Positions 4,372-24,136 of a stretch of 24,136 nucleotides of DNA are shown one piece after another. Made by a program: the position numbers and the translations under genes. The notes under the pieces are model-generated. The model saw only the letters and a list, made by a program, of their open reading frames with translations. It did not search any database and was not told where the DNA came from. This DNA is from a virus, in IMG/VR virus record IMGVR_UViG_3300044998_000647, positions 1 through 24,136 of that record; one strand, written 5' to 3'. How positions within the stretch are numbered: position 1 is the first letter of the stretch; the number at the start of each line of letters is the position of its first letter.

Positions 4372-6459
4372 TTACGCCCCGGCGCTCTTGACCGCGGCCC
4401 GGAAGTCCTGCATCGCCACGCCGAAGTCGAAGTAGCCGCGCCACTTCATCCCGAGCGTGTCGAAGTCCGTCTCGCCCGACTCGACGGTCGGCGTCCGCAG
4501 GCCCCGCAGGTACGCGATCTCGATAGCCGCCACGTCGGCCGGGTTGGCGAACAGATACCAGGCGGTCGCGCTGCCGCCGGCGATCCCCTGCGAGTTCAGG
4601 TACGGCGAGGCCAGGGGCTCCCACTTGCCGGCGTGCGGGTTGTTGGCCGGCTTCGGCTTGTCGGCGGTGGTCGTCTCGTTGACCCGCGTCTCGGTCATGA
4701 GCTGCTGGGCCGTCACCTTGAGCGAGGTCGGCACCAGCAGGATGGCCGGCGAGATCAGGATCGGCTTGCCGTCCTTGTCGGTCTGGTCCAGGAACAGCTG
4801 CTCGGCCGTCGTCAGCGAGCTGATCTGCAGCGCCGTGCCGGCACCGCTCTGGAAGTTCTTGTTGGCCACGCTGAAAAAGCCGCCGGGGTTGGACAGCAGC
4901 AGCGTGAACACGGCCGACTCGACCGCCAGCGCCGACTGCCGGCCGAGGATGCGCGGGATCTGCAGGAACGCGCCCAGGTCGTCGTTGATGATCATCTGCC
5001 GGGTCAGGGCGATGATCTTGCCGTAGGTGTCGATCTGGTTCGTGTAAGACTCTTCCGTGAGGTTCGCGTGCTTCAGCTCGCCGTCGGGGCCGACCTTCTC
5101 GAAGGTGCCCTGGCCGGTCATGCGGTAGCGCGTGACCTGCTTGAAGTCGTTCACGTCCGCCTGGGCGCAGATGCGGACGGCGACGCTCTCGACGGCGCTG
5201 TACGCCTCCAGGAGCGCCTTGTTGGCGACGTTGGAGAGGATGCCCGACAGGCTGATCGTGGAGAAGCCGCCGGCGGCCGCACGCAGGGCGCGGTCGGCCT
5301 CGAAGGCGGTGCGGATGGTGTCGTCGGTCATCCGGCCGGGCCGGGCGTGGCCGCCGGCGGCGTGGATGACGTGGTAGAACAGCTCGTGCAGCCCCATGCC
5401 GCGCAGGTCGCGGGACTGGGCCGCCTCGACCGTCTGCTGCCCGTACCAGGCCAGGACCTTGGCCTCGGGCATCCGCACCGACAGGCACAGGGCCGCCTCG
5501 ATGGCCGCGGCGGTCGGGGGCTTGCCGTTGGCCGTGTGGATGGCCGGGCCTTGCGGCCGGGAGGCCCGCAGGACCTCCAACTCGGCGCGGGTCGCGTCCC
5601 AGCCCTCCTCGATGGCCTTGGCCTCGATCTCGGGGTGCTTGCCGCCGCAGACCTTGCGGATCGCGGCGATCCGCTTCACCTCGGCCGCCGCCTCGGCGCG
5701 GATTGTGGTCGCGGGGCTGGGCGGGTCATCGGGCGGCGTCTTCTTGGCGCCCTGGGCGTCGTACACGGCCCGCAAGCTCTTGGTCTGCTGGTCGTTCAGC
5801 GTGTCGATGGCGAAGCCCTGCGCCTCAAGCCACTGCGAGAAGTCCATGTCGGTCGTCTCCCCAGGTTGGTCGGCGGTCGCCGCGATCTGGGCCGAGGTGT
5901 TCTCGTCCGCGCCCAGCACGACGAAGCTGATCTCGCCCAGCGTCGCCCGCCGGGCGATGTTCACGGGGCCGGCGAACTCCCGGCCGTTGGCCTGCGCGGT
6001 CTTGCCCTCCGGCACGAACTCCACCTGCTCGGCCCGCGCCCCGATGGAGGCCTGCCAGGCGAAGCCCCGGTCGTTCAGGGCGATGACCTGCCGGGCCTTG
6101 GGCGAGTCGCCCATCACCTGGCCGGCGACGATCAGCTGGTTGTTCATGACCGCGACGGAGTCGGTCTGCCCCAGCACGAAGTCCACGTCGCGGGTGTGGT
6201 CGAGCAGGATCGGCCGGCGCTGGCGGCCGGCGTCGAGGCCGGCCAGGTCCACGACGACCGGGTAACGCCAGCCGACGAGCTGCATGGCCCCGCCGGTGTA
6301 GGCGGTCATGGTGAAGCGCCGCAGCTTCTGCGCGTCGCCCTCGCCGGCAGCCGCCTCCAAGGTGACCGCGTCCGCGAGCAGGTTGAGCCGGCCGTCATGG
6401 GACGGCCGCTTCGCGCTCGCGCGGATCACCTTCGGCGTCTTCAGCGTCTTCGTCGTCAT
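4372..6459 (-). CDS. Prohead protease - major capsid protein fusion
   Basis: This 695-aa protein joins two functions usually on separate genes. The N-terminal part (about residues 45-195) is a prohead protease-like domain. Likely catalytic residues are H88 in LLDHTRDVDF and S138 in WQASIGARAE, and the typical EISFVVLGADENT follows at 176-188. A linker with scaffold-like helices (205-330) leads into the major capsid protein (about 330-695), with DDTIRTAFEADRAL, FKQVTRYRMTG and ESVAVRICAQADVNDF blocks. Self-cleavage would release the capsid part. GAAGAGGAG lies before the ATG, and the gene overlaps the portal by 65 bases. Confidence 0.9.
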   Translation of the reverse strand: MTTKTLKTPKVIRASAKRPSHDGRLNLLADAVTLEAAAGEGDAQKLRRFTMTAYTGGAMQLVGWRYPVVVDLAGLDAGRQRRPILLDHTRDVDFVLGQTDSVAVMNNQLIVAGQVMGDSPKARQVIALNDRGFAWQASIGARAEQVEFVPEGKTAQANGREFAGPVNIARRATLGEISFVVLGADENTSAQIAATADQPGETTDMDFSQWLEAQGFAIDTLNDQQTKSLRAVYDAQGAKKTPPDDPPSPATTIRAEAAAEVKRIAAIRKVCGGKHPEIEAKAIEEGWDATRAELEVLRASRPQGPAIHTANGKPPTAAAIEAALCLSVRMPEAKVLAWYGQQTVEAAQSRDLRGMGLHELFYHVIHAAGGHARPGRMTDDTIRTAFEADRALRAAAGGFSTISLSGILSNVANKALLEAYSAVESVAVRICAQADVNDFKQVTRYRMTGQGTFEKVGPDGELKHANLTEESYTNQIDTYGKIIALTRQMIINDDLGAFLQIPRILGRQSALAVESAVFTLLLSNPGGFFSVANKNFQSGAGTALQISSLTTAEQLFLDQTDKDGKPILISPAILLVPTSLKVTAQQLMTETRVNETTTADKPKPANNPHAGKWEPLASPYLNSQGIAGGSATAWYLFANPADVAAIEIAYLRGLRTPTVESGETDFDTLGMKWRGYFDFGVAMQDFRAAVKSAGA

Positions 6460-7924
6460 CGGTCGGCTCCTCTTCCCCGTCCGGCCCCTGTTCGTCGTCC
6501 GGCTGCTCTTCGTCGGCGGGTGACGGCTGCGCTGGTGCGGTGGTCAGGCCCAGCTCCTGCATCAGGGACAGTTCCTTGGCCCGCTGGCGCAGGGCCTCCT
6601 CCCAGTCCCGGCCTTGCTTGGCGTACTCGTGGGCCAGCGTCGTCGTGTGGTTGCCCAGCCGCGTCGCCTGGGCGCTGGCCTCTTTGGTCGGATCGACGTG
6701 CTCGTGGCCGTCCCAGAACCACTGGTGCGGCCAGTCGGCGATCAGTCCCAGGCCGGCCGGGAGCAGACCGGGGACTAGCGCCGCCTCGTCGAACCAGGCG
6801 GCGAGGACGCGGTCCAGCACGGCGCACTCCAGGTGCGCTTGCTCGACGCGGATCGCCTTGAAGTAGGTCTGGTGGTCCAGCCGGCCGGAGGCGTAGTTGT
6901 AGCCCGAGCTGTTGCCCGCCGCGACGTTGAACGGCATGTTCAGGCAGCGGGCGATCTCGTTGAGGACCTCGCGCTTGAACTCGGCGTAAGTCGTCGCCGG
7001 CTGCTCGGCCTGCAGCTGGCTCATCTTCCAGCCGCCGGGCATGGTGACCAGTGCCCGCTGCTCCAGCTCGATGGGCTCGAACGGCTCGGCGGCGTCGGCC
7101 TCGCCGTTGGCCGGCGCGTCCGTGTAGAGGATGCCGGCGAAGTCGGCGGCCGTCTCCGCGGCCGCGAGGACCGCCAGGGTGAAGCGCCGCAGCTGGGCGA
7201 ACAGCGGCAAGGCCGGCGTGATGTCCGGGATGCCGCGGGCCTGGCCGGGGCGGTCGGCCCGGAACCAGTGGACCACCGACGCGGCCGGCACCCGGTCGTA
7301 GTCGAGGAAGTAGCGTCGGCTCGTCTCGCCCGGGTGCTCCCGGAGCACGTGGTACTCGACCGGGTTGCCGGCCGCGTCGAAGACGATCCCGTCGATGGCG
7401 TTGGCGTCCTGGGCCGACAAGTCCGGGGTGCAGACCTGGTCGGCCTCGACCAGGCGCAGGTCGAGCTGCACGGGCGTGGGCAGCATCGGGTTGCTGGTCA
7501 GGACGGCGAACCCTTCCCCGTCGTGGGCGCGGGCCATCCGCATGGTGCGCAGCTTGTCGGCCAGGCCGACCGCCTTCGACCAGGCGGCGAACGCTTGCTC
7601 GATCCGTCGGTTGGCCTCGGGGTCGTCCGTGAGCAACTGCAGCCGCGGCCCGGTGCCGACCACGTCGTTGGCCAGGGTCAGCACGATGCCGCGGGCGTAG
7701 CTGTTGTTGGCGACCTCGTACCGCGCCCGGTTCCGCAGCACGCGCCGGACCTCGGCGCTGTTGGCGGCGTTGGCCGACAGCCCGTCCGCGTTCGCCCAGT
7801 GCCGGCGGTTGTCGTCGTTGGTCACCGCCGCGTCATAGCGGGCGCGGAGCACCCGCACCGCGCGGCCACGGACGGGCCGGGCCGGCTTAGCGGCGGCGAA
7901 CAGGTTGGACAGCCAGCGGAACAC
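6395..7924 (-). CDS. Phage portal protein, lambda family
   Basis: This 509-aa protein is a lambda-type portal. The N-terminal RARYDAA, then WANADGLSANAANS and RRVLRNRARYEVANNSYARGI (residues around 40-80), is the family signature. Later blocks include LVEADQV, VPAASVVHWFRADRPGQARGIP, and ARCLNMPFNVAAGNSSGYNYASGRLD in the C-terminal half. The tail is a long acidic run (DEEQPDDEQG to DDDEDAEDAEG). It forms the ring through which DNA enters the head and is the platform for the connector. Start is GTG 7924, directly after the preceding stop. The end overlaps the next gene by 65 bases. Confidence 0.95.
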   Translation of the reverse strand: MFRWLSNLFAAAKPARPVRGRAVRVLRARYDAAVTNDDNRRHWANADGLSANAANSAEVRRVLRNRARYEVANNSYARGIVLTLANDVVGTGPRLQLLTDDPEANRRIEQAFAAWSKAVGLADKLRTMRMARAHDGEGFAVLTSNPMLPTPVQLDLRLVEADQVCTPDLSAQDANAIDGIVFDAAGNPVEYHVLREHPGETSRRYFLDYDRVPAASVVHWFRADRPGQARGIPDITPALPLFAQLRRFTLAVLAAAETAADFAGILYTDAPANGEADAAEPFEPIELEQRALVTMPGGWKMSQLQAEQPATTYAEFKREVLNEIARCLNMPFNVAAGNSSGYNYASGRLDHQTYFKAIRVEQAHLECAVLDRVLAAWFDEAALVPGLLPAGLGLIADWPHQWFWDGHEHVDPTKEASAQATRLGNHTTTLAHEYAKQGRDWEEALRQRAKELSLMQELGLTTAPAQPSPADEEQPDDEQGPDGEEEPTDDDEDAEDAEGDPREREAAVP

Positions 7925-8122
7925 TCAGTTGACCCCCGGCGGCACGAACTTGTTGAAGCGCAGGCCGCGCTGCTTGGCCTTGGCGGCTTCCTTGGCGCAC
8001 AGGTAGCGGTCGGCCTCGATCTGGTCGGGCAGCGGGTGCTGCTCGACGCTACCGGCGTCGCCGGCGGCCTTGGCCGGCCCCTCGGCGTTCTTGCGGATTT
8101 CGTCTTCGAGGTCGTCGGCCAT
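7925..8122 (-). CDS. Small phage protein upstream of the portal (65 aa)
   Basis: The start at 8122 (MADDLEDEIRKNAEGP) is chosen because GGGAG lies upstream and the longer 77-aa version would begin inside the promoter-like element. The pattern PDQIEADRYL ... LRFNKFVPPG is one I recall from short proteins placed just before the portal in several prophages. The protein is charged and predicted helical. It ends with TGA directly followed by the portal GTG. A head-assembly or head-tail joining helper is possible. No catalytic motif is seen. Confidence 0.75.
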   Translation of the reverse strand: MADDLEDEIRKNAEGPAKAAGDAGSVEQHPLPDQIEADRYLCAKEAAKAKQRGLRFNKFVPPGVN

Positions 8123-8151: not shown

Positions 8152-8200
8152 CAGGCATCTATCCGTAGACCTACCCGGTGCGGGAGCGAGTTGACGCAAG
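8152..8200 (-). promoter_or_regulatory. Repeated promoter-like element, copy A (before the head operon)
   Basis: This copy matches 19476-19524 at 40 of 49 positions. The core GTAGACCTACCCGGT (8165-8179) and GTTGACGCA (8190-8198) are exact, with the same 25-base offset between their starts. On the minus strand this gives CAAC, 19 bases, then GTCTAC, about 42 bp before the first gene of the head operon. A purine-rich stretch (8199-8220) lies upstream in the direction of transcription. Confidence 0.65.
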
Positions 8201-8232
8201 GGGGGGAGGGAAAACAGGAGATCGTGGTACAT

Positions 8233-12101: not shown

Positions 12102-13411
12102 GCCGGCACCTCCTCGGGCGCGGCAACCCGTTCTGCCTTGCGGCCCGTGAACTTCTCCCAGCGCTGGACGATCACGTCGCAGTAGAGCGGATCCAGCTCC
12201 ATCAGGAACGCCTTGCGGCCCGTCTGCTCCGCGCCGATCAAGGTCGAACCAGACCCGCCGAACAGGTCCAGTAGGTGCTCGCCGGGCCGCGACGAGTACT
12301 GAATCGCCCGCACCGCCAGCTCGACCGGCTTCTCGGTCAGATGGACCATGTTCTGCGGGTTGACCTTCTTGACCGACCAGACATCGACGGCGTTGTTCGG
12401 CCCGAGGAAGACGTGCGCCGCGCCTTCTCGCCAGCCGTAGAAGCACCACTCGTGGTTGCCCATGAAGTCCTTGCGGGTCAGCACCGGGTGCTCCTTCACC
12501 CAGATAATCGCCTGCGAGAAGTACAGCTCGCACGCCTTCAGGACCGGCGGGTAATTGGCACAGTTGGCGTAGCCGCCCCAGATGTAGAACCCGCGGCCGG
12601 GAAGGAGCACGCGGGCGAGGTTCCCGAACCAGGCGTGCAGCATCTGCTCGAACGCCTCGTCGGAGACGAAGTCGTTGGCCAGCGGCCGGTCCTTGGCCCG
12701 CAGCTTCTTGCCAGTCGGCTTGGCCTTCTCCGGGTGCCGCACCACGTCCATCTTCTGGTGGTGAGTCGTCTCGAAGGAGGAGAGGCCGGCGGCGATGGCA
12801 TTGTTGCTCCGCGGCTCGACCTTCACGTTGTACGGCGGGTCCGTGTTGACCAGGTGGATCGCCGCGCCGCCGAGCAGCCGGTCCACGTCCGCGGGCTTGC
12901 CGCTGTCGCCGCACAGCAGGCGGTGGTCGCCAAGCAGCCACAGGTCGCCTGGTCGCGTTGTCGCTTCGTCGGGCGGCGCGGGCACTTCGTCGGGGTCGGT
13001 CAGCCCGTCCTTCACGCCGGGGTCGAGCAGCCGGGCCAGCTCGTCCTGGTCGAAGCCGAGTAGGCCCAGGTCGAAGTCGCATGCCTTCAGTTCCCCCAGC
13101 TCGATGGGGAGCAGATCGTAGTTCCAGTCCGACAACTCGGCGCTCTTGTTGTCGGCGATGCGGTAGGCCCTGATCTGCTCGGGCGTCAGGTCCGTGGCGA
13201 CGTGGACCGGCACCTTCTCCAGGCCCAGCTTCAGCGCCGCCTTGTAGCGCGTGTGGCCGACGACGATGACGCCCTCGGCGTCCACGACGATCGGCTGACG
13301 GAACCCGAACTCGCGGAGCGACGCCGCGACGGCGTCCACCGCGTCGTCGTTGACGCGGGGGTTGTTCGGGTAGGGCTTGATCTCGGACAGCTTCCGCAGT
13401 TCGATCTTCAT
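12098..13411 (-). CDS. ParB-like domain fused to DNA adenine/cytosine-N4 methyltransferase
   Basis: This 437-aa protein starts with a ParB/Srx-like nuclease-fold domain (residues 1-115): IKPYPNNPR, then FGFRQPIVVD, GHTRYKAA and LTPEQIRAYRIADNKSAE. The methyltransferase follows, with motif IV DPPY (191-194), TEKPVEL (359-365), and the SAM-binding motif I LFGGSGST (383-390). The order DPPY before FGGSGS is that of beta-class amino-methyltransferases. The start at 13411 follows GGAG at a good distance; 13 more upstream codons are open but lie before it. Such phage fusions usually modify phage DNA, against host restriction or for packaging control. No restriction enzyme gene is next to it, so it is probably an orphan. 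The target site cannot be read from the sequence. Confidence 0.93.
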   Translation of the reverse strand: MKIELRKLSEIKPYPNNPRVNDDAVDAVAASLREFGFRQPIVVDAEGVIVVGHTRYKAALKLGLEKVPVHVATDLTPEQIRAYRIADNKSAELSDWNYDLLPIELGELKACDFDLGLLGFDQDELARLLDPGVKDGLTDPDEVPAPPDEATTRPGDLWLLGDHRLLCGDSGKPADVDRLLGGAAIHLVNTDPPYNVKVEPRSNNAIAAGLSSFETTHHQKMDVVRHPEKAKPTGKKLRAKDRPLANDFVSDEAFEQMLHAWFGNLARVLLPGRGFYIWGGYANCANYPPVLKACELYFSQAIIWVKEHPVLTRKDFMGNHEWCFYGWREGAAHVFLGPNNAVDVWSVKKVNPQNMVHLTEKPVELAVRAIQYSSRPGEHLLDLFGGSGSTLIGAEQTGRKAFLMELDPLYCDVIVQRWEKFTGRKAERVAAPEEVPA

Positions 13412-13746: not shown

Positions 13747-15849
13747 TCAAGAGGCCCCCAGCAGCCGGTAGAGCTTGCTGGGGCGTCCCGCCGTGCGGAC
13801 CTCCGTGTACTCGATCAGCCGCTGGTTCAAGAGCGTGGTGCGGACCTCCTCGTGCTCGCGCTCGCTCCAGGGGTGCTTGCGGTTGATCTGCCAGAAGGGC
13901 ATCCAGGCGTCGCCGTGCTTCTCCTGCCACTTGCGCAGCGTCACCACCAGCTTCTTGCAGCGGGCGTCGAACTCGTTCTCGCTGACGTACTCGCCGGCCA
14001 TGAAGAGCATGCGGCGGGTCTGGTGCTCGACGAAGGCGCACGCCCAGCGGGCCGCGTCCGCGTCGATCCGCGGGTCGAGGTGGTTGGCGCTGCAGGCGTA
14101 GACCAGCGCCAGCCGGCGGGCCTTCTCGTTGGCCCGCGCCCAAATCGCCATGCCCACCGGGTCGCCCTTGTCCTCGGCCAGCGAGTACTGGTCGTCGGCC
14201 CGTTGGCGAAATGCCCGCAAGACGTCGGCGGCCTCGGGCGTGGCCTCGACGACCTTGGGGATGGGGTGCCAGTCCGCCAGGTTGCCACGCTTCTCCCCCG
14301 GACAGAAGTCCGCCCACCATCGCGCCGTCGCCAGGACCGGCGCCGGCAGGTCGCGGACGACCGCGTCCTGGCCCCGGCCGCGCTTGCCCGTCTCGAGGAT
14401 GAGCATGCGGGCGAAGAAGCCGTTAGTGAGCATCTTCAGCGACAGCGCCTCGTAGTAGTGCTTGGGGATGGCGGTGCCGAAGATGCACAGGCACGGCTGG
14501 TCGATGACGCCCGGCTCCTTGCCCGCCTTGACCCGCATCGGGTAGAGCGCGCTGGCGCTGGTGTACATCTTGAGCAGCACGTTCATGATCCCCTCGTGCC
14601 GCGCGTCCTTGCCGAGGTTGATCTTGGTCATCAGGCCGTCGATCTCGTCAGTCTGGAACAGCACGGACGGGTGCAGGAACAGCCGGTCCTCGATCCCCTC
14701 GCCGCTGGCGAAGGTGTCGCCCAGGCTTTCGGTCAGTCCGGCCTCCAGCAGCACCTTCTGGTTGACCTTGCGCGGGTAGTCCTTGCCCGCCCCGGAGTTG
14801 GCCAGGCCGAGGACGTAGAGGTTGGTGCGGTTATCGGCGGCGTCGCGGACCTTGCGGCCGGCGAGCAGCGCCTGCAGCGACAGCGCCCCGCAGAAGGCGA
14901 GCGCCCGCTCCGGGTAGGGCGCGGTCTGGAGCGTGTACGTCATCACCTCGCCGATGAAGCCGGGGACGCAAAGCAGCTCGTCGGGGATCGGGCCGGGGTC
15001 CGGGTTGTCGGGGGCCTCGTCGCCCGGCCCCTCAGCGTACATCTGGTCCCAGTGGTTCTCGGCCAGCGCGACCGCGACCTGGTCCGGCTCGTAGCGGGCG
15101 ACGCTCGACGCGATCCGCTCGACCTCGCGCGGCGGCAGCGGCGGGGCACAGCGGTCGGCGTTGACGCGGAGGAGCGCCGCCGCCATCTCGGCCTGGGACA
15201 TCCCCACCCGCCGCATCGCCCCCGCCAGGCGCGCCAGGGTCGCGTTCCGTTGCCCCTTGGGGATTTGGTTCGCCTCGGGCGGACCGGCCGCGACGTGGGC
15301 CGACGTGGGCGTTCCGTTGGCCAACCCGTCGAGTTCCTGGGCCAACCACGGCGGCGGTTCGGGGAGGCGGTCGGGCGGGTCGTCCAGCTCCAGACCCGGT
15401 GCCCAGCGGTAGGCCTTCCCTCCCTCGATCACGGACGGCGGGGCCACGATGTAGCCGCCGTCGGCGCGGGTATCGACCTTCGGGGCGAGCCGCCCTTCGG
15501 TGCAGCGCCAGCCCTTGCCCGCCGGCTGGCGGAACACGCGGTGGCTACCGCCGCGCGGCGTGATGGCCATCGGCCCCGCCGCCAGGTCGAACATCCGCTC
15601 GGGGTTGCCGCCGGGCCAGGAGTTGGCGTCGCCGTCGATGTCGATGATGACCAGCCCCTCCGTGGCGACGGCGACGTTGGCGCTGGGGTGCTGCGTCCAC
15701 CAGCGCTCGATCTGGTCGGGGTCGATGGTCGCGTCGTGGAAGCCGTGCTCGGTGAGCGGGACCTTCGTGCCGGGCGCGCAGGGGAACACCCGGTAGCCCA
15801 GCTCGGCATAGCGGAGAGCGGCGGTCAGCAGCTCGTTCGGCGTCACCAC
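13747..15849 (-). CDS. Bifunctional prim-pol and helicase/ATPase replication protein
   Basis: This 700-aa protein combines three parts. The prim-pol domain (residues 1-170) has the acidic pair in VIIDIDGD (D70, D72), the SxR/His segment GGSHRVFRQP (H103), and GGYIVAPPS (131-139). A primase C-terminal domain follows (KGQRNATLARLAGAMRRVGM, 198-217). A DUF3987-like ATPase domain has Walker A NSGAGKD (351-357) and Walker B-like LFQTDEID (397-404). The C-terminus reads as a winged helix ending GRPSKLYRLL. It would prime and unwind the phage genome. Two GTG codons lie in a row at the start (15849 and 15846); the second gives a GTGA overlap with the helicase stop and may be the true start. The candidate origin lies directly downstream. 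Confidence 0.92.
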   Translation of the reverse strand: MVTPNELLTAALRYAELGYRVFPCAPGTKVPLTEHGFHDATIDPDQIERWWTQHPSANVAVATEGLVIIDIDGDANSWPGGNPERMFDLAAGPMAITPRGGSHRVFRQPAGKGWRCTEGRLAPKVDTRADGGYIVAPPSVIEGGKAYRWAPGLELDDPPDRLPEPPPWLAQELDGLANGTPTSAHVAAGPPEANQIPKGQRNATLARLAGAMRRVGMSQAEMAAALLRVNADRCAPPLPPREVERIASSVARYEPDQVAVALAENHWDQMYAEGPGDEAPDNPDPGPIPDELLCVPGFIGEVMTYTLQTAPYPERALAFCGALSLQALLAGRKVRDAADNRTNLYVLGLANSGAGKDYPRKVNQKVLLEAGLTESLGDTFASGEGIEDRLFLHPSVLFQTDEIDGLMTKINLGKDARHEGIMNVLLKMYTSASALYPMRVKAGKEPGVIDQPCLCIFGTAIPKHYYEALSLKMLTNGFFARMLILETGKRGRGQDAVVRDLPAPVLATARWWADFCPGEKRGNLADWHPIPKVVEATPEAADVLRAFRQRADDQYSLAEDKGDPVGMAIWARANEKARRLALVYACSANHLDPRIDADAARWACAFVEHQTRRMLFMAGEYVSENEFDARCKKLVVTLRKWQEKHGDAWMPFWQINRKHPWSEREHEEVRTTLLNQRLIEYTEVRTAGRPSKLYRLLGAS

Positions 15850-17564
15850 GGAATCTCCTCCTCCGCGGTGACCGCGTTGTACCCGAACGGGAAGTCGAGC
15901 GCGTTCTCAGGCAGATCGCCGAGGGCATCATCGGCCAGATGCTCGCCCTCCAGCGGCGGAGGGATGTCGCCGAGTTCATAGCCGATGACTCGGTCGTAGT
16001 CCTCGCCGGTGACACTGCGGACGGTGATCTCCCGCGTGGGGGCCAGGCGTCCCGCCTGCGCCAGGGCAACCGCTTCCTCGGCAGTATCCGGGACTGGATC
16101 GGGCGAGCGCCGCTTCCACCAGGCGACTGCCTTGTGCCGGGCATAGCCGGTGTGCTCGAAGCAGACCCACTCGGACTTGAAGTCGTGGAAGCCGACCTTG
16201 TAGTCCACGCGCATCGACTTCGGGGCGTCGTCGCCCGCGCCGCGCTTGCGGTGGACGCTGTAGAACACGTCCCGCACGGGGTACTTCTTGGTCGTCACCT
16301 GCCCGGAGAGGATGCCGGCCTCGCTCGCCTTGGCGTCGTGCTTCTGTCGCTCCGGCGGCGGGAACTCGTAGCCGCAGTCGGGGCAGCGGGCGTAGCCGGC
16401 GGCGATGACCGAATTGCACTCGGGGCACTCCTTGGCCGGGGCCGGCCCGCCGCCGGCGTCGCGCTCCCTGACCTTGATCTGGTCCACGGGGCCGTGCCGC
16501 AGCACGTTGCCGCCGAAGTCGAGCACCAGGCAGTTGGCCTTGCTTGGGTGCAGGCGGAAGCCGCGGCCGACCATCTGGTAGTACAGCCCGGCCGACAGCG
16601 TCGGGCGCAGCAGCGCCACGCAGTCGATATTCGGCGCATCGAAGCCGGTGGTCAGCACGTTGACGTTGCACAGGTACTTGAGCACGCCGGCCTTAAACCG
16701 GGCCAGGGTCGCGTCCCGCTCGTCGAGCGCCGTGTCGCCGGTGACGAAGCCGCAGTCAATGCCGTACTTCGCCTTCAGCACCGAGACGATGTGCTCGCCG
16801 TGCTTGACCCCGCTGGCGAAGATCAGCACCGCATTGCGGCTGCGGGTCTGCTCGACGATCTCGTCGCAGGCGGCCTCGACCAGCGCGTCGTTGTCCATCA
16901 GGTCCTCGACCTCGCCGGCGATGTACTCGCCGCCCCGGACGTGCAGCCCGCTGGTGTCGGCCTTCGCCTTGCCCGCCTTGGTGACCAGCGGGCAGAGGTA
17001 TCCGCCCACGATCAGCTCGCGGACGCCGACCTCGTAGCAGACGTGGTTGAGGAAGCCGTCCGGCGTGCAGATCGACCCGGTCTTGAGGCGGAACGGCGTC
17101 GCCGTGAAGCCGATGATCCGCAGGTTGGGGTTGATGGTGCGGGCGTCGGCCAGGAATTGGCGGTACATGCCGTCACCTTCGGGCGGGATCATGTGCGCCT
17201 CGTCGATGACGACGAGGTCGAACGCCTCCAGTTCGCAGGCCCGCTTGTAGACCGACTGGATGCCGGCAATGATCACCGGGTGCGCGGTGTCGCGGCGCTT
17301 GAGGCCCGCCGAGTAGACGCCGAAGCGGACCTCGGGGCAGACCGCGTTGAGCTTGTCGGCCGCCTGCTCCAGCAGCTCCTTGACGTGGGCCAGGATCAGC
17401 ACGCGGCCCTGCCACAGGCCCACGGCGTCCTTGCAGACCGACGCAATGACGGGCGTCTTGCCGCCAGCGGTGGGGATCACCACGCACGGGTTGTCGTCCC
17501 GCACGCGCAGGTGGTCGTACAGCGCGGCCTTGGCCGCCTCCTGGTAGGGTCGCAAGAGCAGCAT
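15843..17564 (-). CDS. SF2 DEAH helicase, RadD-like, with C-terminal zinc finger
   Basis: This 573-aa protein has the full superfamily 2 set: motif I TAGGKT (residues 32-37), motif II DEAH (121-124), motif III TATP (154-157), motif V around VLTTGFDAP (303-311), and motif VI QMVGRGFR (330-337). A four-cysteine zinc finger follows: C380, C383, C394, C397. The C-terminal 150 residues include WVCFEHTGYARHKAVAWW and are typical of phage RadD-like helicases. It would unwind or remodel DNA forks and junctions next to RusA. The start at 17564 is chosen for the ATGA overlap with rusA; a start 17 codons upstream is open but reads as Arg/Pro-rich noise. Its stop overlaps the prim-pol start. Confidence 0.92.
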   Translation of the reverse strand: MLLLRPYQEAAKAALYDHLRVRDDNPCVVIPTAGGKTPVIASVCKDAVGLWQGRVLILAHVKELLEQAADKLNAVCPEVRFGVYSAGLKRRDTAHPVIIAGIQSVYKRACELEAFDLVVIDEAHMIPPEGDGMYRQFLADARTINPNLRIIGFTATPFRLKTGSICTPDGFLNHVCYEVGVRELIVGGYLCPLVTKAGKAKADTSGLHVRGGEYIAGEVEDLMDNDALVEAACDEIVEQTRSRNAVLIFASGVKHGEHIVSVLKAKYGIDCGFVTGDTALDERDATLARFKAGVLKYLCNVNVLTTGFDAPNIDCVALLRPTLSAGLYYQMVGRGFRLHPSKANCLVLDFGGNVLRHGPVDQIKVRERDAGGGPAPAKECPECNSVIAAGYARCPDCGYEFPPPERQKHDAKASEAGILSGQVTTKKYPVRDVFYSVHRKRGAGDDAPKSMRVDYKVGFHDFKSEWVCFEHTGYARHKAVAWWKRRSPDPVPDTAEEAVALAQAGRLAPTREITVRSVTGEDYDRVIGYELGDIPPPLEGEHLADDALGDLPENALDFPFGYNAVTAEEEIPW

Positions 17565-17908
17565 CAGACGCACCGGACGCGGACCACGGTTTTCCCGCCC
17601 TCGACGGGGTCGCACTTGACGATGGCGAGCCGGACGACTTGGCTATCGTCACCGTAGACGCCCCCGTGCTGGAGGGCGTCGAGGAGGGCCTTCTGCACGT
17701 TATCGATGTCGCGCCGCCGGCGGTCGGGCGGGTAGACATCGACCTCCACCGCCAGCGGTCCGCTCAGCGGGTTGACGCGCCGGGCCGCGAGGATCGCCAG
17801 CACGCGCTGGCGGAAGCGGCGGCCCTCGCGGCTGATCAGGGTGCGGAACCCCACCCGCCGCCAGTAGTGGTTGATCGACGGCGGGTAGGGCAGCTCGGCC
17901 TCGAACAT
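17564..17908 (-). CDS. rusA: RusA-family Holliday junction resolvase
   Basis: This 114-aa protein matches RusA in length and pattern. It opens with the family's LPYPPSINHYWR and has the core RRRRDIDNVQKALLDAL. The metal-binding and catalytic residues line up by spacing with E. coli RusA D70, D72, K76 and D91: here D67, D69, K73 and D88, with the same gaps. The enzyme dimer cuts four-way DNA junctions made during phage recombination or replication. The start at 17908 overlaps the DUF669 stop (ATGA), and its own stop overlaps the helicase start in the same way. The reading frame is open further upstream, but that part is out-of-frame DUF669 sequence. Confidence 0.93.
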   Translation of the reverse strand: MFEAELPYPPSINHYWRRVGFRTLISREGRRFRQRVLAILAARRVNPLSGPLAVEVDVYPPDRRRRDIDNVQKALLDALQHGGVYGDDSQVVRLAIVKCDPVEGGKTVVRVRCV

Positions 17909-18372
17909 CAGTTGCGCCTCCACGGCGGCGTGCTGTTGGCGGACGGCTGCGTGCCTGCCGTCCCGGGCTGCAGGGCTTCCTTCTTCGTGTAGCCCTTGAT
18001 TTCGTTGGTGATCTCGCCGGTGTCGTCGCGCTTCTTGCACTTCACGGAGATGACCAGGGGCAGGTTGTGCAGCTCGACCGAGTCGTTGGGGGCCAGCACG
18101 CCCACGGCCCGGCAGATGGCGGACAACTCGGCGCGGGCGATCTGCACCGCCGTCGCGTTCGGGTTGTCGAGGTTGAGCCGCGCCCACAGGTAGCGGTTCT
18201 TGTACGGCCCCTCGACGATCTGGAAGGTGAGCTGGAGGAAGTGGCCCGTGTTGGCCTTGTTCGGCTTCATCTCCGACTCGGTGATGACGGCCAGGTACTT
18301 GCCGGCGGGGATCGGGTCGAAGTCGCTGGTCGGTTCGACATGGTTGGCGTCGAAGCCACGGAGGTCAGCCAT
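17908..18372 (-). CDS. DUF669 family protein, probable phage single-stranded DNA-binding partner
   Basis: This 154-aa protein matches the DUF669 pattern: an N-terminal IPAGKYLAVITESEMKPNK, then a strand pair around LQLTFQIVEGPYKNRYLW (read as two blocks, residues 43-63), and a following ARAELSAICRAVGV helix. The family is common in phages beside AAA_24 ATPases and has an OB-fold-like single-strand-binding role by proposal. The acidic tip usual in bacterial SSB is missing; the C-terminus is instead Pro/Ser-rich and ends PPWRRN. The gene sits between the ATPase (8-base overlap) and the RusA gene (ATGA overlap), which supports a joint recombination role. Confidence 0.87.
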   Translation of the reverse strand: MADLRGFDANHVEPTSDFDPIPAGKYLAVITESEMKPNKANTGHFLQLTFQIVEGPYKNRYLWARLNLDNPNATAVQIARAELSAICRAVGVLAPNDSVELHNLPLVISVKCKKRDDTGEITNEIKGYTKKEALQPGTAGTQPSANSTPPWRRN

Positions 18373-19153
18373 GTTCGTTCGCTCCTTGGGTGGGTTGGTG
18401 GTTGGAAAGGGCCGCGACGAAGGCAGCCCACGACAGGGGCAGGTCCTCGGTCAGCCCGTAACGGTTCTTGGCGATGCACGAGGGGCCGCCGACGGTCCGC
18501 AGCACGCGCTCGCCGCCGTCCTTGCCCAGCGCGTGGGCGATGGTGCGCTTGCGGCCGAATCCGGCGTCCTCCGTCTGCGTGCGGACCTTCCGCGTGGCGA
18601 ACAGCACCGCGTCGCACCACTCGCTGACCAGCGCGCTGGCGTGCTTGTGCAGGCGCGGCGAGTAGCGGTCGTAGGGCGACGACTCCGGGTCCTCGAACTT
18701 CTCGACCTTGGCGTGCGCGATCAGCACGACGACCATGCCGCGCGTGTTGCGGAGCGCGTTGAGGTGCTCGACGACCTCGCGCCAGTAGGTCAGGGCGTGC
18801 GTGTAGCCCTTGGCGTAGCCGCCGTCGGCCTTCTCGATGCTCTTGGCCCCGGACTCCTGGCAGACCTTGTCCCAGATCATCCGCTCCAGCCAGTCGAGGC
18901 TGTCGATGACGACCGTCTCGTACTCGTGCGGCTCGGCCCGCAGCCCGGCCAGCGCGGCTAGGACCTCGTCGTAGGTGGTCGCCAGGGGGAACTTGTCGCA
19001 GTCGATCTCGTCCAGGCCGTCCTCGGTCTGGACGAAGACCGGCCTGGGCGCGCCGGCCGCGAAGGTGGACTTGCCGATCCCCTCGGTGCCGTAGACGAGC
19101 AGTCGCGGCGGCTTCGGGGTGCGGCCCCGCTGGACGCGGGCCAAGAGGCTCAT
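18365..19153 (-). CDS. AAA_24-family phage ATPase, Sak4-like recombinase
   Basis: This 262-aa protein is a RecA-fold phage nucleotide-binding protein. The Walker A motif is GTEGIGKST (residues 22-30), and the Walker B strand is ETVVIDSLDWLE with the family's Asp-Ser-Leu. A third strand, GMVVVLIAHAKVEKFED, carries the His seen in Sak4-like proteins. These proteins bind single-stranded DNA and promote annealing or strand exchange during phage replication. Partner genes agree: a DUF669 single-strand-binding-type protein and a RusA resolvase follow directly. It overlaps the 101-aa gene by ATGA and the DUF669 gene by 8 bases. The family call is firm; recombinase activity is taken from characterised Sak4 relatives. 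Confidence 0.9.
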   Translation of the reverse strand: MSLLARVQRGRTPKPPRLLVYGTEGIGKSTFAAGAPRPVFVQTEDGLDEIDCDKFPLATTYDEVLAALAGLRAEPHEYETVVIDSLDWLERMIWDKVCQESGAKSIEKADGGYAKGYTHALTYWREVVEHLNALRNTRGMVVVLIAHAKVEKFEDPESSPYDRYSPRLHKHASALVSEWCDAVLFATRKVRTQTEDAGFGRKRTIAHALGKDGGERVLRTVGGPSCIAKNRYGLTEDLPLSWAAFVAALSNHQPTQGANEHG

Positions 19154-19455
19154 GCGTGGACCTCCTCGGGTTGGTGGTTGGTCTTGTCGGTGACGCGCTC
19201 GACGCGGAAACCGTCCGCGCCGAACTCGCGGCGGATGAAGCCGACGAACAGCCGGTTGCAGTCCCGGCCGACCGGCGTGCCCGCGTCGATGACGCAGGCA
19301 CGCCGGTCGCGGTCCAAGAGATGGGCCGCGTCGAGGCGGACCTGGGCTTCGCCGTGCAGGCTCTCCGTGCCCCAGATGGCCAACAGCAGCGTGGCCTCGA
19401 CCTCCTCGAGCGGGACGTGCGGCGGGAAGGAGTAGCGGTAGAGTTCCTTGGTCAT
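19150..19455 (-). CDS. Uncharacterised 101-aa protein, first gene of the replication operon
   Basis: No family is recognised. The protein starts MTKELYRYSF after GAAGAGG at a good distance from the ATG. It reads as a compact soluble alpha/beta protein. Its middle segment, ESLHGEAQVRLDAAHLLD, is followed by DRRACVIDAGTPVGRDCNRLF, recorded here as two blocks at about residues 31-48 and 49-70. It is the first gene after the repeated promoter-like element and overlaps the next gene by ATGA, so it is expressed with the recombination proteins. A planctomycete-type phage early protein is the most that can be said. Confidence 0.75.
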   Translation of the reverse strand: MTKELYRYSFPPHVPLEEVEATLLLAIWGTESLHGEAQVRLDAAHLLDRDRRACVIDAGTPVGRDCNRLFVGFIRREFGADGFRVERVTDKTNHQPEEVHA

Positions 19456-19475: not shown

Positions 19476-19524
19476 CGGGCCTCTACCCGTAGACCTACCC
19501 GGTCCGCAGGCGGGTTGACGCAGG
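19476..19524 (-). promoter_or_regulatory. Repeated promoter-like element, copy B (before the replication operon)
   Basis: On the minus strand this reads TGCGTCAAC, 19 bases, then GTCTAC. Its copy at 8152-8200 matches at 40 of 49 positions with identical spacing. The two invariant blocks on the plus strand are GTAGACCTACCCGGT (19489-19503) and GTTGACGCA (19514-19522), and the 10 bases between them vary (5 of 10). It lies between the sigma gene stop and the first replication gene, about 34 bp before its ATG. Conserved blocks around a variable spacer are what a promoter would show. The core GTAGACCTAC is also near-palindromic, so an operator is an alternative. Confidence 0.65.
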
Positions 19525-19526
19525 GC

Positions 19527-20153
19527 TCAGAGATAATCCCGTAGCCCCGCGCCCTCGAAGGCGCGGCGGACGTGTTCCATTCGCCGCAGCAGCGTCGTGC
19601 GCGGCAGGCCCAGGTCGCGGGCTACCTGGGAGACGGAGTCGTGCTTGAGCCGCTCGGCCACGTCCCGGAGGTCCGCCGGCAGGTCGGCCAGCACGTCGGC
19701 CACGTCGCCGGCGAGCTGCGCCCGCTCCTCGTCGCTGCGGGGGTCGCGGCCGAGCCGGGCGTCCTGCTCGCGCCGGCCGACCGTTTCGGCCAGCTCGACC
19801 GGGCCGTTGTCGCCGGTCTCGATCAGGACGTGCAGCGACGTGGCCCGCCGGTGGTCGCGCTTTTCCGCCCGCTTGTCGCGGAGGAGGCTGGCGGCGTACC
19901 GCTCGACCACGGTGGTGACGAAGACGTGCCAGTGGGCCTCGCCGGGGTCGAAGGCCGACAGCTGCTTGAGCAGCTTGAGGGCGAGTTCCTGCTCGATGTC
20001 GTCCCGGTCACTCCGGGTGAAGCCGGCCCGGCCCACGAGCTGCCGGGCCTTGCGGCGGATCAGGCGCGCCGCGAAGGCATCGAGCTGTTTCGGACTCGCC
20101 GAACTGTGAGGATGGGGTTGGGGAGTTGGAGATTGCCTCGTGTCTGGTTTCAT
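19527..20153 (-). CDS. Phage-encoded sigma-70-family RNA polymerase sigma factor
   Basis: This 208-aa protein has the layout of a small sigma factor. A region 2 stretch (residues 22-98) includes DRDDIEQELALKLLKQLSAF, the aromatic HWHVFVTTVVERYAASLLRD, and a basic end. A region 4 (about 152-204) has the HTH DSVSQVARDLGLPRTTLLRR. The start at 20153 is chosen because the frame upstream of it runs into the terminator hairpin; AAAGGG lies close before the ATG. The product would redirect host RNA polymerase. Its gene ends directly before a conserved element (19476-19524) that recurs before the head operon (8152-8200) and could be its promoter. Regions 2.4 and 4.2 are recognisable only in outline. 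A sigma-like regulator with another role is possible. Confidence 0.82.
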   Translation of the reverse strand: MKPDTRQSPTPQPHPHSSASPKQLDAFAARLIRRKARQLVGRAGFTRSDRDDIEQELALKLLKQLSAFDPGEAHWHVFVTTVVERYAASLLRDKRAEKRDHRRATSLHVLIETGDNGPVELAETVGRREQDARLGRDPRSDEERAQLAGDVADVLADLPADLRDVAERLKHDSVSQVARDLGLPRTTLLRRMEHVRRAFEGAGLRDYL

Positions 20154-20335: not shown

Positions 20336-21310
20336 CTACCCCGTCTTCTGCCCGCGCGGCCTCCCCTTCCAGCGCATGATCTGGTCCAGGTCCAGGGCCG
20401 TCTCCCAGTACAGGCGCAGCTCGCGCGCCGACTCGTCGGCCAGGCAGCGGCTGACGTCGGCCTTCGTCAGCCCGGTGCGCTTCGCCAGGTCCTTCTGGCT
20501 CGGCCGGGGGAGCAGCTCCGGGGTGCCCGTCCGTTCCTTGGTCGCGTAAGCGTAGTCCCTGGCCGCCAAGAGGTGTTCCGCCATCTCACGGACCAGCGCC
20601 TCGATCTTGCCGGCCCGCTCGGCCCGCTTGCGGGGCGGCCGCTTCGCCTTGACCCCGTCGGTCAGCCCCGAGTCGGTCAGCCGGCTTTCGACGTAGGCCA
20701 TGTCGAAGGAAAGCGCGGCCGGCCCGAAGGTGACCACGGACTCCAGGGCGATGGCCAGGTTCGTGGTCGCGCTGCCCCAGCGCCGGACGCTCGCTTCCGT
20801 GGGCAAGAAGAGGAGGGCCTTGGGCCGGCGGGACATCTCGGCGGTGAGGGCGGGGCGGCTATCCTCGTAGACGTGCCGGGCGAAGTAGACCTCGCGCGGG
20901 CGCTGCCCCCAGGTCGCCTTGCCCACGCGCCAGAGGTGCCCGGTCACGGCCTCGGCGGGCGGCCCGCGGACGCCCGCGGCGTCGGACACGGCGGCGAGGA
21001 GTGCCGGTACGTCCACGGCCCACCGCTTCAGGCGGTCGAGCGGGACCTCGACGGCCCCGCACTCCGGGCAGGGGATGTAGGCGTGCCGCCGCCCCGTCCG
21101 GCTGCTGGTGACGAACTCGACGCGGCCGACGTAACCGCGCCCGCAGTCCCAGCACGGCGCGGACGTGGCCGGCGTCGTCTCGCGCAACAGCCCGAGGCCG
21201 ACCAGCCGTTCCAGTGCGGGGCCGAGGTGCTTGTGGGCCTCCTCCGCGAAGAACACCGGCGGCTCGTCATCCAGCCGCTGCAACATCAGGGGCAACGGAT
21301 CGGACACCAT
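20336..21310 (-). CDS. Uncharacterised 324-aa zinc-ribbon and HTH protein
   Basis: The N-terminal part looks like a winged-helix fold (FFAEEAHKHLGPALERLVGLGLL, key helix at residues 20-42). A four-cysteine zinc ribbon follows: C53 and C56 (CWDC), then C81 and C84 (CPEC). The middle, about residues 125-200, includes LWRVGKATWG and KALLFLP and resembles no family I know. A basic linker (KAKRPPRKRAER, 221-232) precedes a C-terminal helix-turn-helix (SQKDLAKRTGLTKADVSRCL, 271-290). The two nucleic-acid-binding modules suggest a DNA-binding regulator. It overlaps the 399-aa gene by 44 bp and ends 3 bases before the first of two hairpins. It may act on the palindrome at the head of its own unit, but this is untested. 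Confidence 0.82.
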   Translation of the reverse strand: MVSDPLPLMLQRLDDEPPVFFAEEAHKHLGPALERLVGLGLLRETTPATSAPCWDCGRGYVGRVEFVTSSRTGRRHAYIPCPECGAVEVPLDRLKRWAVDVPALLAAVSDAAGVRGPPAEAVTGHLWRVGKATWGQRPREVYFARHVYEDSRPALTAEMSRRPKALLFLPTEASVRRWGSATTNLAIALESVVTFGPAALSFDMAYVESRLTDSGLTDGVKAKRPPRKRAERAGKIEALVREMAEHLLAARDYAYATKERTGTPELLPRPSQKDLAKRTGLTKADVSRCLADESARELRLYWETALDLDQIMRWKGRPRGQKTG

Positions 21311-22466
21311 CGATGTTCCACCGTTTGAGGTACTTCTGGGCCAGCTCGATCCGCTCGGGCCGCTGGTTCCGCAGGCTGCAGCTGCTCGGGTACGCCACGT
21401 CGAACGTCAGTGTGCCCGGCTTGCGGCCGTCGAGCGGCAGGAACTCGAAGCAGAAGGTGACCATCGTGACGTTGACCGACGACAGCGGCACGCGCTCCTT
21501 GTTGAGGACCTCGTCCAGCATGTCGTAGACGTCGTCCGGGCCGGCGTCGGGGTCGGCCTCCAGGACCATGCGCCGGTGGCTGTTCTTGAACGACAGCCGC
21601 AGCCGGCGGACGCGCGCCCGCACGCAGTCCTCGGGGTCCGTGGCCAGGGAGAAGGTCCGGTGCTTGAGCCCGTTCAGGTCGTAGGCCGCATCCGGGTTCC
21701 AATCCTCCAGCTCGACGCCCAGGACGATCTGGGCGAACAGCTCTTCCAGCCGCGGCTTGATCTTGGGCGGCACCTTGGCGAACAGCTCCAGCGTGCCCTC
21801 GGCGCGGTTGTAGGCGAAGACGATGGCGAACGTCTGGCGGAAGGTCCGCGGCGCGAGCTTGCCGTCCTGGTCGTGGGCGGTGACGTTCTGGACGAAGTCG
21901 TCGGGGTGGGCGAAGAAGTAGTCCGTCCCGCGGCGGGTGAGGGTTTCCACCGTGCAGACCTTGCCCCGCCCCTGCTCACACAGCAGCAGGTCGGACAGGC
22001 CCTTTTCGAGCTGCTTGAGGGTCGCCGGCGACTTGTCCGGCTCGACCTGTGGCAGGTCCTTGCGCTTGCGCCACCAGGCCAGGTGCTCGACCTGGTGGAT
22101 CAGGATCGCCCGGTTGACGATCTCAGTGCGGTTCAACCACGCCCACATCGCCTTGTGGTAGGGGCCGCCATCTTGCGGCATGGCGGCCGGCAGGTCGGGG
22201 TCGCCGGCCAAGACGCCGGCCTCGATGATGGCGCCGATCCCCGTCTCGCAGGCCAGATCGAAGACGTTGTGCAGCGCCCCCTCGACGTTGTCGAACTGAG
22301 CCGGCGTCAGCGCGTTCAGCGCCTGCACGATCGGCTCGATCTCGCGCTCGCCCAGCCCCTCCCACGCGATGCCGAGGTCGCCGTGCCCGAGCCGCTGGAA
22401 GAATTCCTTCAGCAGGCAGTTGGGAACCATCCTCAACACAGTCGGAATCGAAAACGCACGCGACAT
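21267..22466 (-). CDS. Uncharacterised 399-aa protein, first gene of the accessory pair
   Basis: I do not recognise a family. The start at 22466 (MSRAFSIPT) is chosen because AAGGGGG lies 8-10 bases upstream; the frame stays open for 90 more codons upstream, but that part runs through the promoter-like region and reads as non-coding. The protein is mixed and soluble, with no signal peptide or membrane segment. Visible blocks are an N-terminal helical part (residues 15-85), a Trp-rich stretch (MWAWLNRTE, HLAWWRKRKDLP, residues 107-139), and a C-terminal half of alternating strands ending in YPSSCSLRNQRPERIELAQKYLKRW (360-383, quoted as one segment of key residues C363, R366, R369 and the following helix). 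It overlaps the next gene by 44 bp, so the two products are probably made together. Regulation, immunity or defence would fit the position, but none is shown. Confidence 0.8.
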   Translation of the reverse strand: MSRAFSIPTVLRMVPNCLLKEFFQRLGHGDLGIAWEGLGEREIEPIVQALNALTPAQFDNVEGALHNVFDLACETGIGAIIEAGVLAGDPDLPAAMPQDGGPYHKAMWAWLNRTEIVNRAILIHQVEHLAWWRKRKDLPQVEPDKSPATLKQLEKGLSDLLLCEQGRGKVCTVETLTRRGTDYFFAHPDDFVQNVTAHDQDGKLAPRTFRQTFAIVFAYNRAEGTLELFAKVPPKIKPRLEELFAQIVLGVELEDWNPDAAYDLNGLKHRTFSLATDPEDCVRARVRRLRLSFKNSHRRMVLEADPDAGPDDVYDMLDEVLNKERVPLSSVNVTMVTFCFEFLPLDGRKPGTLTFDVAYPSSCSLRNQRPERIELAQKYLKRWNIDGVRSVAPDVAAAG

Positions 22467-22560
22467 GCCGCTTCGCCCCCTTTCCGTCACCGCCGGACGA
22501 CACATCGGTGCCGCCGTCGGCCGGGTTCGTGGCGAAGCACCTTCGTTCGGACGAGACTTT

Positions 22561-22576
22561 CCGTTCCTATGAACGG
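22561..22576. promoter_or_regulatory. Perfect inverted repeat at the presumed transcription start (possible operator)
   Basis: CCGTTC and GAACGG form a perfect 6-bp inverted repeat around the 4-base spacer CTAT. It starts about 5 bp downstream of the candidate -10 at 22581-22586, where a bound repressor would block initiation. The HTH of the 324-aa protein in the same unit, or the 145-aa HTH protein, could be its ligand; this is inference. Confidence 0.4.
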
Positions 22577-22580
22577 CGGT

Positions 22581-22610
22581 ATAGTAACATGTTGGGCGGT
22601 GCCGAGACAA
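22581..22610 (-). promoter_or_regulatory. Candidate sigma-70 promoter of the 399/324-aa unit
   Basis: On the minus strand, TTGTCT (22605-22610) and TACTAT (22581-22586) are separated by 18 bp, each matching 4 of 6 consensus bases. The segment is visibly more AT-rich than its surroundings. It lies between the stop of the HTH gene and the 399-aa gene, about 115 bp before that gene's start. It was found by eye and has not been scored. Confidence 0.45.
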
Positions 22611-22660
22611 CTTCAGAGTCGGCTTACAAGAGGATCGGAACCTCAGCAAGGTCAGATTTA

Positions 22661-23098
22661 CTAGTGGGTTGCGGCCTGTACGGGCTGTGCGGCCTGCGCC
22701 ATTAATTCTTGCCACATCCGCCGCTGTTTTCCCCAATCCAGCGCAGCTGCAATCGGTTGCAGCTGGCGCAGGTGAATCGGGTCACGGCCCCGGACGGTCC
22801 GGGGCAGGAACAAGATCGCCTCTTGGATGTCGGGGGCCAGGTAGACCAGGTTCATGATCTGGCTCACCCGCGCCCGGGTGACGTGCCCGAGGCGGGCCAG
22901 CTCGGTGTAGTGGGCGATCTCCCCGGCGCGGAGGAGGCTGTCGAACCGGATGGCCAGCGCCATCAGCCGGGCGATCCGCGGCACCCGGCCCGGCGTGGCC
23001 GGGCGCGGCGGCTCCCCGCCCGGCCGCAGCTCCTTGCGGCTGCCTCGGCCACGCCGGTAGAAGTGGACGTCACACTCGACGGTCAGCGTCTCGGTCAT
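22661..23098 (-). CDS. Small ParB-like HTH protein coupled to the recombinase
   Basis: This 145-aa protein carries a clear helix-turn-helix in its middle (AHYTELARLGHVTRARVSQI, about residues 60-80), followed by the segment PDIQEAILFLP. The same short HTH protein is, to my knowledge, often encoded next to large serine recombinases in proteobacterial and planctomycete elements. The N-terminus reads VECDVHFYRRGRGSRKEL, and a Pro/Gly/Arg-rich linker leads into the HTH. Its ATG overlaps the recombinase stop (ATGA), so the two are translated together. A role as a recombination accessory or regulatory factor is inferred from this coupling. It ends with TAG, which shows that TAG is an ordinary stop codon in this element. 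Confidence 0.82.
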   Translation of the reverse strand: MTETLTVECDVHFYRRGRGSRKELRPGGEPPRPATPGRVPRIARLMALAIRFDSLLRAGEIAHYTELARLGHVTRARVSQIMNLVYLAPDIQEAILFLPRTVRGRDPIHLRQLQPIAAALDWGKQRRMWQELMAQAAQPVQAATH

Positions 23099-24136
23099 GC
23101 GATCTTCTCCCTCCCGCCCTGGTCCGCCAGCTCATCGGCCAGGGTCTTGATGCCCGCCGGCTGGAACGTGATCGACACCTTCCCCCTGGCCCCGTCGTAG
23201 TCCACCCGCTCGACGAGCAGCTGCACCACGCGGGCCTGCTCGGCGGGCGTGAGCGACTCCCACACCGGGTCGAAGACCGACAGCGCCAGGGCGACCTCGT
23301 CATCGTCGATCCGCCGCCGGCGGATGGCGGCCGCCTCCTCCCGCACCCGCCCGGTCCGGTCCTCGGCCAGGCGGATGCGCTCCTGCAGGTCCGCCAGGCG
23401 GGCGATGGTCGGGTCGTCCACGGGGTTCGGCGGGATCTTCTGCAGCTCGGCGTGCCAGCGGGCCAGTTCGCGGTCCAGCCCGCGCCGCTCGGCCTCCAGC
23501 TCCGCCAGGCGGGCCTCGTCCTGAGCGCGGGCCTGGGTGATGGTCGCCTGCAGCAGGTCGGGGTCCTTGCCGATGCAGCGGATCTGCTCGACGACGAGCT
23601 GCTCGATCTGGGCAGCGGGAATGGACTTGGACGGGCAGGTGTTCCAGCCACGCTTCTGGGCCGAGGAGCAGACGTAGTAGCGGTAACGCTTGTTGCCGTC
23701 CTTGGTCGTGTGGGTCGGCGTCATGGCACAGCCGCAGGGGACGCAGCGCAAGAGGCCCTTGAGCAGCGCCCCGAACTTGTTCCGCACCGGCGCGCCGCGG
23801 GTCCGGCCGTTGCGGTGCAGCAGTGCCTGGACGCGGGCGAAGACGGCCGGGTCCACGATGGCAGGGTGCTCGCCGTTGTGGACCTCGTGCTTGTACCTGA
23901 TCTTGCCGACGTAGGCGACGTTGGTCAGCAGGCGGTGCAGGTTCGTGCGGGTGAACGGCTTGCCGCCGCGCTCACGGCCCTTGCGGGTCTGCCAGCGCTT
24001 GTTCCGCCAGCCTCGCCGCTCCAGCTCTTGCACCACGGGCAGCAGCGACTCGTGCTCCAGGTAGAGGGCGAAGATGGCCCGCACGCGCTCGGCCTCGGCC
24101 TCGTTGACGACCAGCCGGAAGCCGCGCGGGTCCACG
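23095..24136 (-). CDS. Large serine recombinase (phage integrase), C-terminal part, cut by the window edge
   Basis: This is the C-terminal 347 or so residues of a large serine recombinase. Its N-terminal resolvase domain with the catalytic serine lies beyond the right edge, so activity cannot be judged. The visible part starts in the recombinase domain, where the stretch around RRGWRNKRW and LLTNVAYVGKIRYKHEVH is typical of the family. A zinc ribbon follows (CVPC, then CSSAQKRGWNTC), with the usual YYVCS segment. After it comes a long charged coiled coil rich in Glu, Arg and Ala, which in large serine integrases controls synapsis and directionality. The protein would catalyse integration and excision of this prophage. 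Its stop overlaps the start of the next gene by ATGA. The family is clear; the att site and any directionality factor are not visible. Confidence 0.93.
   Translation of the reverse strand, partial: VDPRGFRLVVNEAEAERVRAIFALYLEHESLLPVVQELERRGWRNKRWQTRKGRERGGKPFTRTNLHRLLTNVAYVGKIRYKHEVHNGEHPAIVDPAVFARVQALLHRNGRTRGAPVRNKFGALLKGLLRCVPCGCAMTPTHTTKDGNKRYRYYVCSSAQKRGWNTCPSKSIPAAQIEQLVVEQIRCIGKDPDLLQATITQARAQDEARLAELEAERRGLDRELARWHAELQKIPPNPVDDPTIARLADLQERIRLAEDRTGRVREEAAAIRRRRIDDDEVALALSVFDPVWESLTPAEQARVVQLLVERVDYDGARGKVSITFQPAGIKTLADELADQGGREKIA

Follow-up and report, generated by a model that had tools for sequence, protein, structure and literature searches.

Candidate cognate promoters of a phage-encoded ECF-type sigma factor in an apparently temperate phage family

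Comparison across related phages strongly supports the view that a two-block DNA element in an uncultivated virus serves as a promoter for an ECF-type sigma factor which the phage itself encodes, a reading to which we assign a probability of about 0.92. The window analysed is the whole 24,136-nucleotide stretch of IMG/VR record IMGVR_UViG_3300044998_000647. It holds two copies of the element, both on the minus strand (Table 1). As the initial annotation had placed them, copy B lies between the stop codon of the sigma gene (19527) and the start of the first replication gene, and copy A precedes the head operon. The core proposal of that annotation, a cognate promoter of the phage's sigma factor recurring before other operons, is borne out by the comparative tests.

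The two copies share more than chance repetition would provide. The stretches 19478-19525 and 8154-8201 (plus-strand coordinates) are 83% identical across 48 nt. Read on the minus strand, both copies take the form TGCGTCAAC-N10-ACCGGGTAGGTCTACGGRTAGA, with a single base differing outside N10. The pattern first reported, two exact blocks at fixed distance around 10 variable bases, is reproduced in both copies; on the plus strand the exact blocks are GTTGACGCA and CCGTAGACCTACCCGGT, and N10 and the flanks vary slightly. Copy A equals copy B at 26 of 28 informative positions, compared with a maximum of 20 in 20 Markov shuffles of the window. The window is 70% GC and contains 13 exact 15-mer repeat pairs, so a lone exact 15-mer is unremarkable and two blocks in register are remarkable.

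Table 1. Coordinates of the predicted promoter elements and of genes in the window.
Feature	Position	Strand	Basis or remark
Predicted promoter copy B (replication operon)	19478..19522	-	Predicted, sequence comparison
Copy B, -35 block CGTCA	19516-19520	-	
Copy B, 16-nt spacer	19500-19515	-	
Copy B, -10 block GGTAGGT	19493-19499	-	
Copy B, downstream box	19478-19492	-	
Predicted promoter copy A (head operon)	8154..8198	-	Predicted, sequence comparison
Copy A, -35 block CGTCA	8192-8196	-	
Copy A, spacer	8176-8191	-	
Copy A, -10 block GGTAGGT	8169-8175	-	
Copy A, downstream box	8154-8168	-	
ECF-type sigma factor	19527..20153	-	Pfam, TIGR02937, phrog_1740, AlphaFold2/Foldseek
Conserved 101-aa protein	19150..19455	-	In most relatives, the first gene after promoter B
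AAA_24 ATPase	18365..19153	-	Pfam AAA_24, 1.4e-53; second gene of replication operon
Single-strand DNA-binding protein	17908..18372	-	phrog_6015, 1.6e-47
DNA helicase	15843..17615	-	phrog_16, 3.6e-95
DNA primase	13747..15849	-	phrog_3022, 4.7e-65
Small gene (gpW position)	7925..8122	-	Directly before portal, first behind promoter A
Portal protein, head operon	6395..7924	-	phrog_21, 1.8e-66; TIGR01539
Serine recombinase	23095..24135	-	Pfam Recombinase and Zn_ribbon_recom; gene cut by window edge

The gene ending beside copy B encodes a sigma factor by several lines of evidence. Its product matches Pfam Sigma70_r2 (1.6e-5, above the gathering score), TIGR02937, the NCBIfam model of the ECF superfamily (2.4e-12, above cutoff), and the PHROG sigma family phrog_1740. 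Region 4 is recognised by TIGR02937 and by the fold, with no region 4 match in Pfam. The protein has the combination that defines ECF factors, namely regions 2 and 4 and no region 3. The start methionine is likely at 20153, in a reading frame open from 20255. An AlphaFold2 model built from 36 homologues (mean pLDDT 79.7) consists of two helical domains, and its Foldseek matches in the Protein Data Bank are nearly all sigma factors, and ECF factors from complexes with RNA polymerase rank first or close to first. Overall TM scores are low (about 0.3) because the two sigma domains are placed differently; the predicted fold supports the identity of the domains rather than their exact arrangement. 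A search of an annotated phage collection with the sigma protein returned no match.

In the window and its relatives, the sigma gene sits between the recombinase and the replication genes. The operon behind copy B is headed by the 101-aa protein, which matched no family in Pfam or PHROG, and encodes the AAA_24 ATPase, single-strand binding protein, helicase, and primase. The first gene of the head operon probably starts at 8122 rather than 8158, because its homologues start there. Upstream of the recombinase in relatives such as L001 is a DUF2924 gene. Several other genes were observed in these regions. Two minus-strand genes between recombinase and sigma (20336-21310 and 21267-22736) are conserved, belong to no Pfam family, and are missing from many relatives; the product of the former, which contains CxxC pairs, is a possible regulator. 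A 139-aa ORF at 11049-11468, rich in Lys and Ala and with a possible helix-turn-helix tail, lies on the plus strand, opposite to the identified phage genes. In L001, a ParB-methylase homologue occurs in two pieces about 900 bases apart (11985-13205 and 14106-14408), as if interrupted by an insertion.

Alignment of related phages redefines the blocks of the element. The conserved pair is CGTCA-N16-GGTAGGT in the window type. In register, the consensus is CG[A/T]CA, exactly 16 bases, GGTARGT or a clade variant (e.g. CAAAGGT), and a weaker box ending in TAG. Mean information across 27 phages is 1.29 bits in the -35 core, 0.75 in the -10 block, and 0.32 in the spacer. In the two most diverged clades the motif itself is new, and its placement follows the same logic. 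The initial annotation had instead taken GTCTAC, at a distance of 19 bases, as the -10 block. This assignment was rejected: the true -10 block is immediately upstream of GTCTAC, a string that is not conserved: relatives whose sigma factors are 52-67% identical show GTGAC or GTACTC in its place.

The element recurs with the sigma gene well beyond the window. It was found directly behind the gene in approximately 30 diverged phages, including those with sigma factors at 52-67% identity, which provides the linkage that the initial annotation had suggested looking for. A search with the gene downstream of sigma yielded 57 loci, and nearly all with enough upstream sequence have sigma there; sigma and this usual neighbour are separated in L017 and L068-L070. 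Further copies were sought by using the element of each contig to scan that contig. A generic pattern with 3 mismatches allowed gave no matches over whole contigs, because the motifs are phage-specific. The contig-specific scans gave two to five copies per phage, placed before replication, head, DUF2924-recombinase, methylase, and tail operons, and the further copies carry the same phage-specific variant as the contig's own element. For example, copies precede the head operon in the window, G002, G008, G009, G011, and G012, the DUF2924-recombinase operon in G003, G004, G006, G011, G012, and others, and a methylase gene in L024. All three main sites are present in G011 and G012. The closest named record is that of the relative L018, a genome bin titled Fimbriimonadales whose assignment may be wrong; the neighbouring gene is present in 7 of 201 genomes of that bin's phylum.

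A first permutation test on second copies was biased, as the copies had been chosen by similarity; we therefore used a leave-clade-out search and a choice based on position. With a matrix that excluded the phage's own clade, and with the search limited to the region upstream of the target gene, the second site was recovered in 21 of 22 regions. In 10 dissimilar phages, blocks were 0.82 identical to those of the same phage and 0.48 identical to those of other phages (permutation p = 1e-5). The same search found no copy before DUF2924 in G005, and a search across the contigs of G232 and G239 found no second copy.

Relatives were also collected blind to sigma, through the small head gene. Among the best 80 of 543 head loci, most have a two-block element just upstream, and sigma is present in 14 of 28 long contigs from these 80. 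All eight gpW-selected long contigs with the gene that usually follows sigma have sigma as well. In 12 new contigs, the head element was picked by position alone and the remainder of each contig was searched; a top-ranking further copy lay directly behind the sigma stop codon in 10 of these, including G220 and G238, where its score does not exceed the shuffle maximum and only its position makes it convincing. The element also stands behind sigma in G217 and G219, although sigma has a different neighbour there. Separately, seven head loci (L159, L185, L187, L198, L209, L219, L224) show a terminator-like hairpin with a T run (e.g. AAGGCCATGCGGGGCCGCATCCCCGCGTGGCCTTTTTT) at the place of the promoter, just upstream of the small head gene.

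The initial annotation had counted an element in phages lacking the sigma gene as evidence against its proposal. Formally, one long contig is such a case: G218 has a single orphan head element and no sigma gene. We read this element as a remnant. Many contigs are fragments, and the other sigma-less contigs examined also lack the genes lying between helicase and recombinase; they are probably cut short. At the place of the sigma block, G218 (L283 and L284, approximately 23268-27381) carries a putative HerA-like ATPase, a NurA-like nuclease, and a 399-aa DruA-like ORF, names that derive from reading of the sequence.

Sharing of a variant within a phage shows that the copies have a trans-acting factor in common and does not by itself identify that factor. 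It could be another DNA-binding protein of the phage, a repressor or activator for which the element is an operator; a candidate is the small protein encoded at 22661-23098 beside the recombinase, which accompanies the recombinase in most contigs. We consider this improbable. The element has no dyad symmetry and consists of two blocks at a fixed 16-nt distance, its copies stay with sigma in phages where the gene has changed place (G217, G219, G005), and the genes at 20336-21310 and 21267-22736 are absent from many element-bearing phages. In addition, the two domains of sigma covary with the two blocks. Across 27 phages, divergence in region 4 tracks the -35 block with region 2 held constant (partial r 0.35), and divergence in region 2 tracks the -10 block when region 4 is controlled for (0.38), against cross terms of 0.04 and -0.06. 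These correlations are robust to clade removal, thinning to 19 phages, narrower blocks, and a neighbouring-protein control. A second set of 16 phages, based on the distant head-operon element and largely independent (three phages are shared with the first), gave 0.41 and 0.52 with cross terms of 0.09 and -0.04. Over all tests, partial r ranged from 0.33 to 0.46 for region 4 with the -35 block and from 0.33 to 0.53 for region 2 with the -10 block, with cross terms near zero. Plain Mantel tests were dropped as evidence in favor of partial tests with cross terms, as the spacer also correlates by descent. Related sequences can make partial Mantel tests look too significant, and the spacer also correlates with sigma (region 4, second set); we therefore take the covariation as strong support rather than proof. 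On these statistical grounds, the specificity of the motif appears to follow sigma.

Phages often use host promoters, and the element might accordingly belong to an ordinary class read by a host sigma factor. This is less probable still, given that the motif differs from phage to phage and is concentrated in phage DNA in the two genomes or bins where this was seen (G050, G016). All five matches with 0-1 mismatches in the 3.5 Mb cellular genome G050 fall inside one 43 kb prophage stretch, where they are associated with a tail gene, a large methylase ORF, the portal, the replication genes, and the recombinase side. The rest of that genome has no match with fewer than 2 mismatches, and weaker matches occur at about the frequency of control patterns. 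Likewise, genome bin G016 (2.9 Mb) has a single window-type element, which is on the phage contig. Type I restriction-modification genes and a PIN-domain protein adjoin the recombinase end of the G050 prophage (L140, 8418-12685). Finally, although the element-bearing family is mosaic, recent duplication or exchange of a segment with no regulatory role is very nearly negligible as an explanation, because the spacers have diverged (identity between copies 0.40 within phages and 0.33 across) while the -10 core is alike (0.94 and 0.62), and diverged phages carry the copies at equivalent places ahead of the same operons.

If the element is a promoter of the phage sigma factor, region 4 would bind the -35 block (CGTCA in the window phage) and region 2 would melt the -10 block (GGTAGGT), which is separated from it by exactly 16 bases. 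With the phage sigma bound, host RNA polymerase would then transcribe the replication operon from 19455 downwards and the head operon from 8122 downwards. In relatives, sigma would also drive the DUF2924-recombinase operon, which in some lineages (e.g. G003) leads on to the sigma gene and may thereby close a positive loop. Transcripts would be expected to start at approximately 19484-19487 for copy B and 8160-8163 for copy A, because the promoters of phage 7-11 start transcripts 6-9 nt from the element (PMC8948821). Transcription itself, its start sites, the loop, and activation of sigma in the lysogen are what we infer from the comparisons.

A few phages are known to have sigma factors with private promoters, which mostly serve middle or late genes. 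The closest precedent is gp47 of phage 7-11, likewise a phage-encoded sigma with bipartite promoters of its own, which have been mapped before late genes as GTAAtg-(16)-aCTA (PMC8948821). Phage 7-11 is a phiEco32-like phage with late promoters, whereas the window family has a serine recombinase, an ECF-type sigma factor, and other promoter blocks, and its promoters would also serve replication and recombinase operons. The sigma factor gp36 of phiEco32 has private middle and late promoters (PMC8948821); these have a single element, tAATGTAtA, without a -35 block, whereas the window family conserves both blocks. Sporulation-type sigma factors of Bacillota phages are discussed for their effects on host dormancy (PMC9429907), in contrast to the window family with its promoters in the phage itself. 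Among bacterial proteins, SigL of Mycobacterium tuberculosis gives the best sequence match in the Protein Data Bank, a weak one, and also ranks among the top fold matches. ECF factors of this type are two-domain proteins like the phage sigma, and the promoter blocks of SigL differ from those of the window phage. Bacterial ECF factors usually have an anti-sigma partner; none was identified for the window sigma. A literature search for ECF sigma factors in temperate phages found no earlier description, which does not show that none exist. As judged from sequence, the new features would be an ECF-type sigma in serine-recombinase phages, a broader range of operons, and a sigma and promoter that visibly diverge together.

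A tentative and rather doubtful extension is that the lysis-lysogeny decision passes through sigma, with a positive-feedback switch in place of the classical repressor-controlled cascade and with sigma-promoter pairs drifting into mutually exclusive specificities. Sigma would in that case simultaneously turn on all lytic operons and the recombinase-sigma operon that encodes it. More broadly, control of the recombinase, replication, and head operons seems to rest with one ECF-type sigma factor throughout a large uncultivated family of apparently temperate bacterial viruses, represented by 543 related head loci. Its dozens of sigma-promoter pairs, which diverged in parallel, offer a natural data set on DNA recognition by ECF sigma factors, and are a likely source of mutually independent promoter-sigma pairs.
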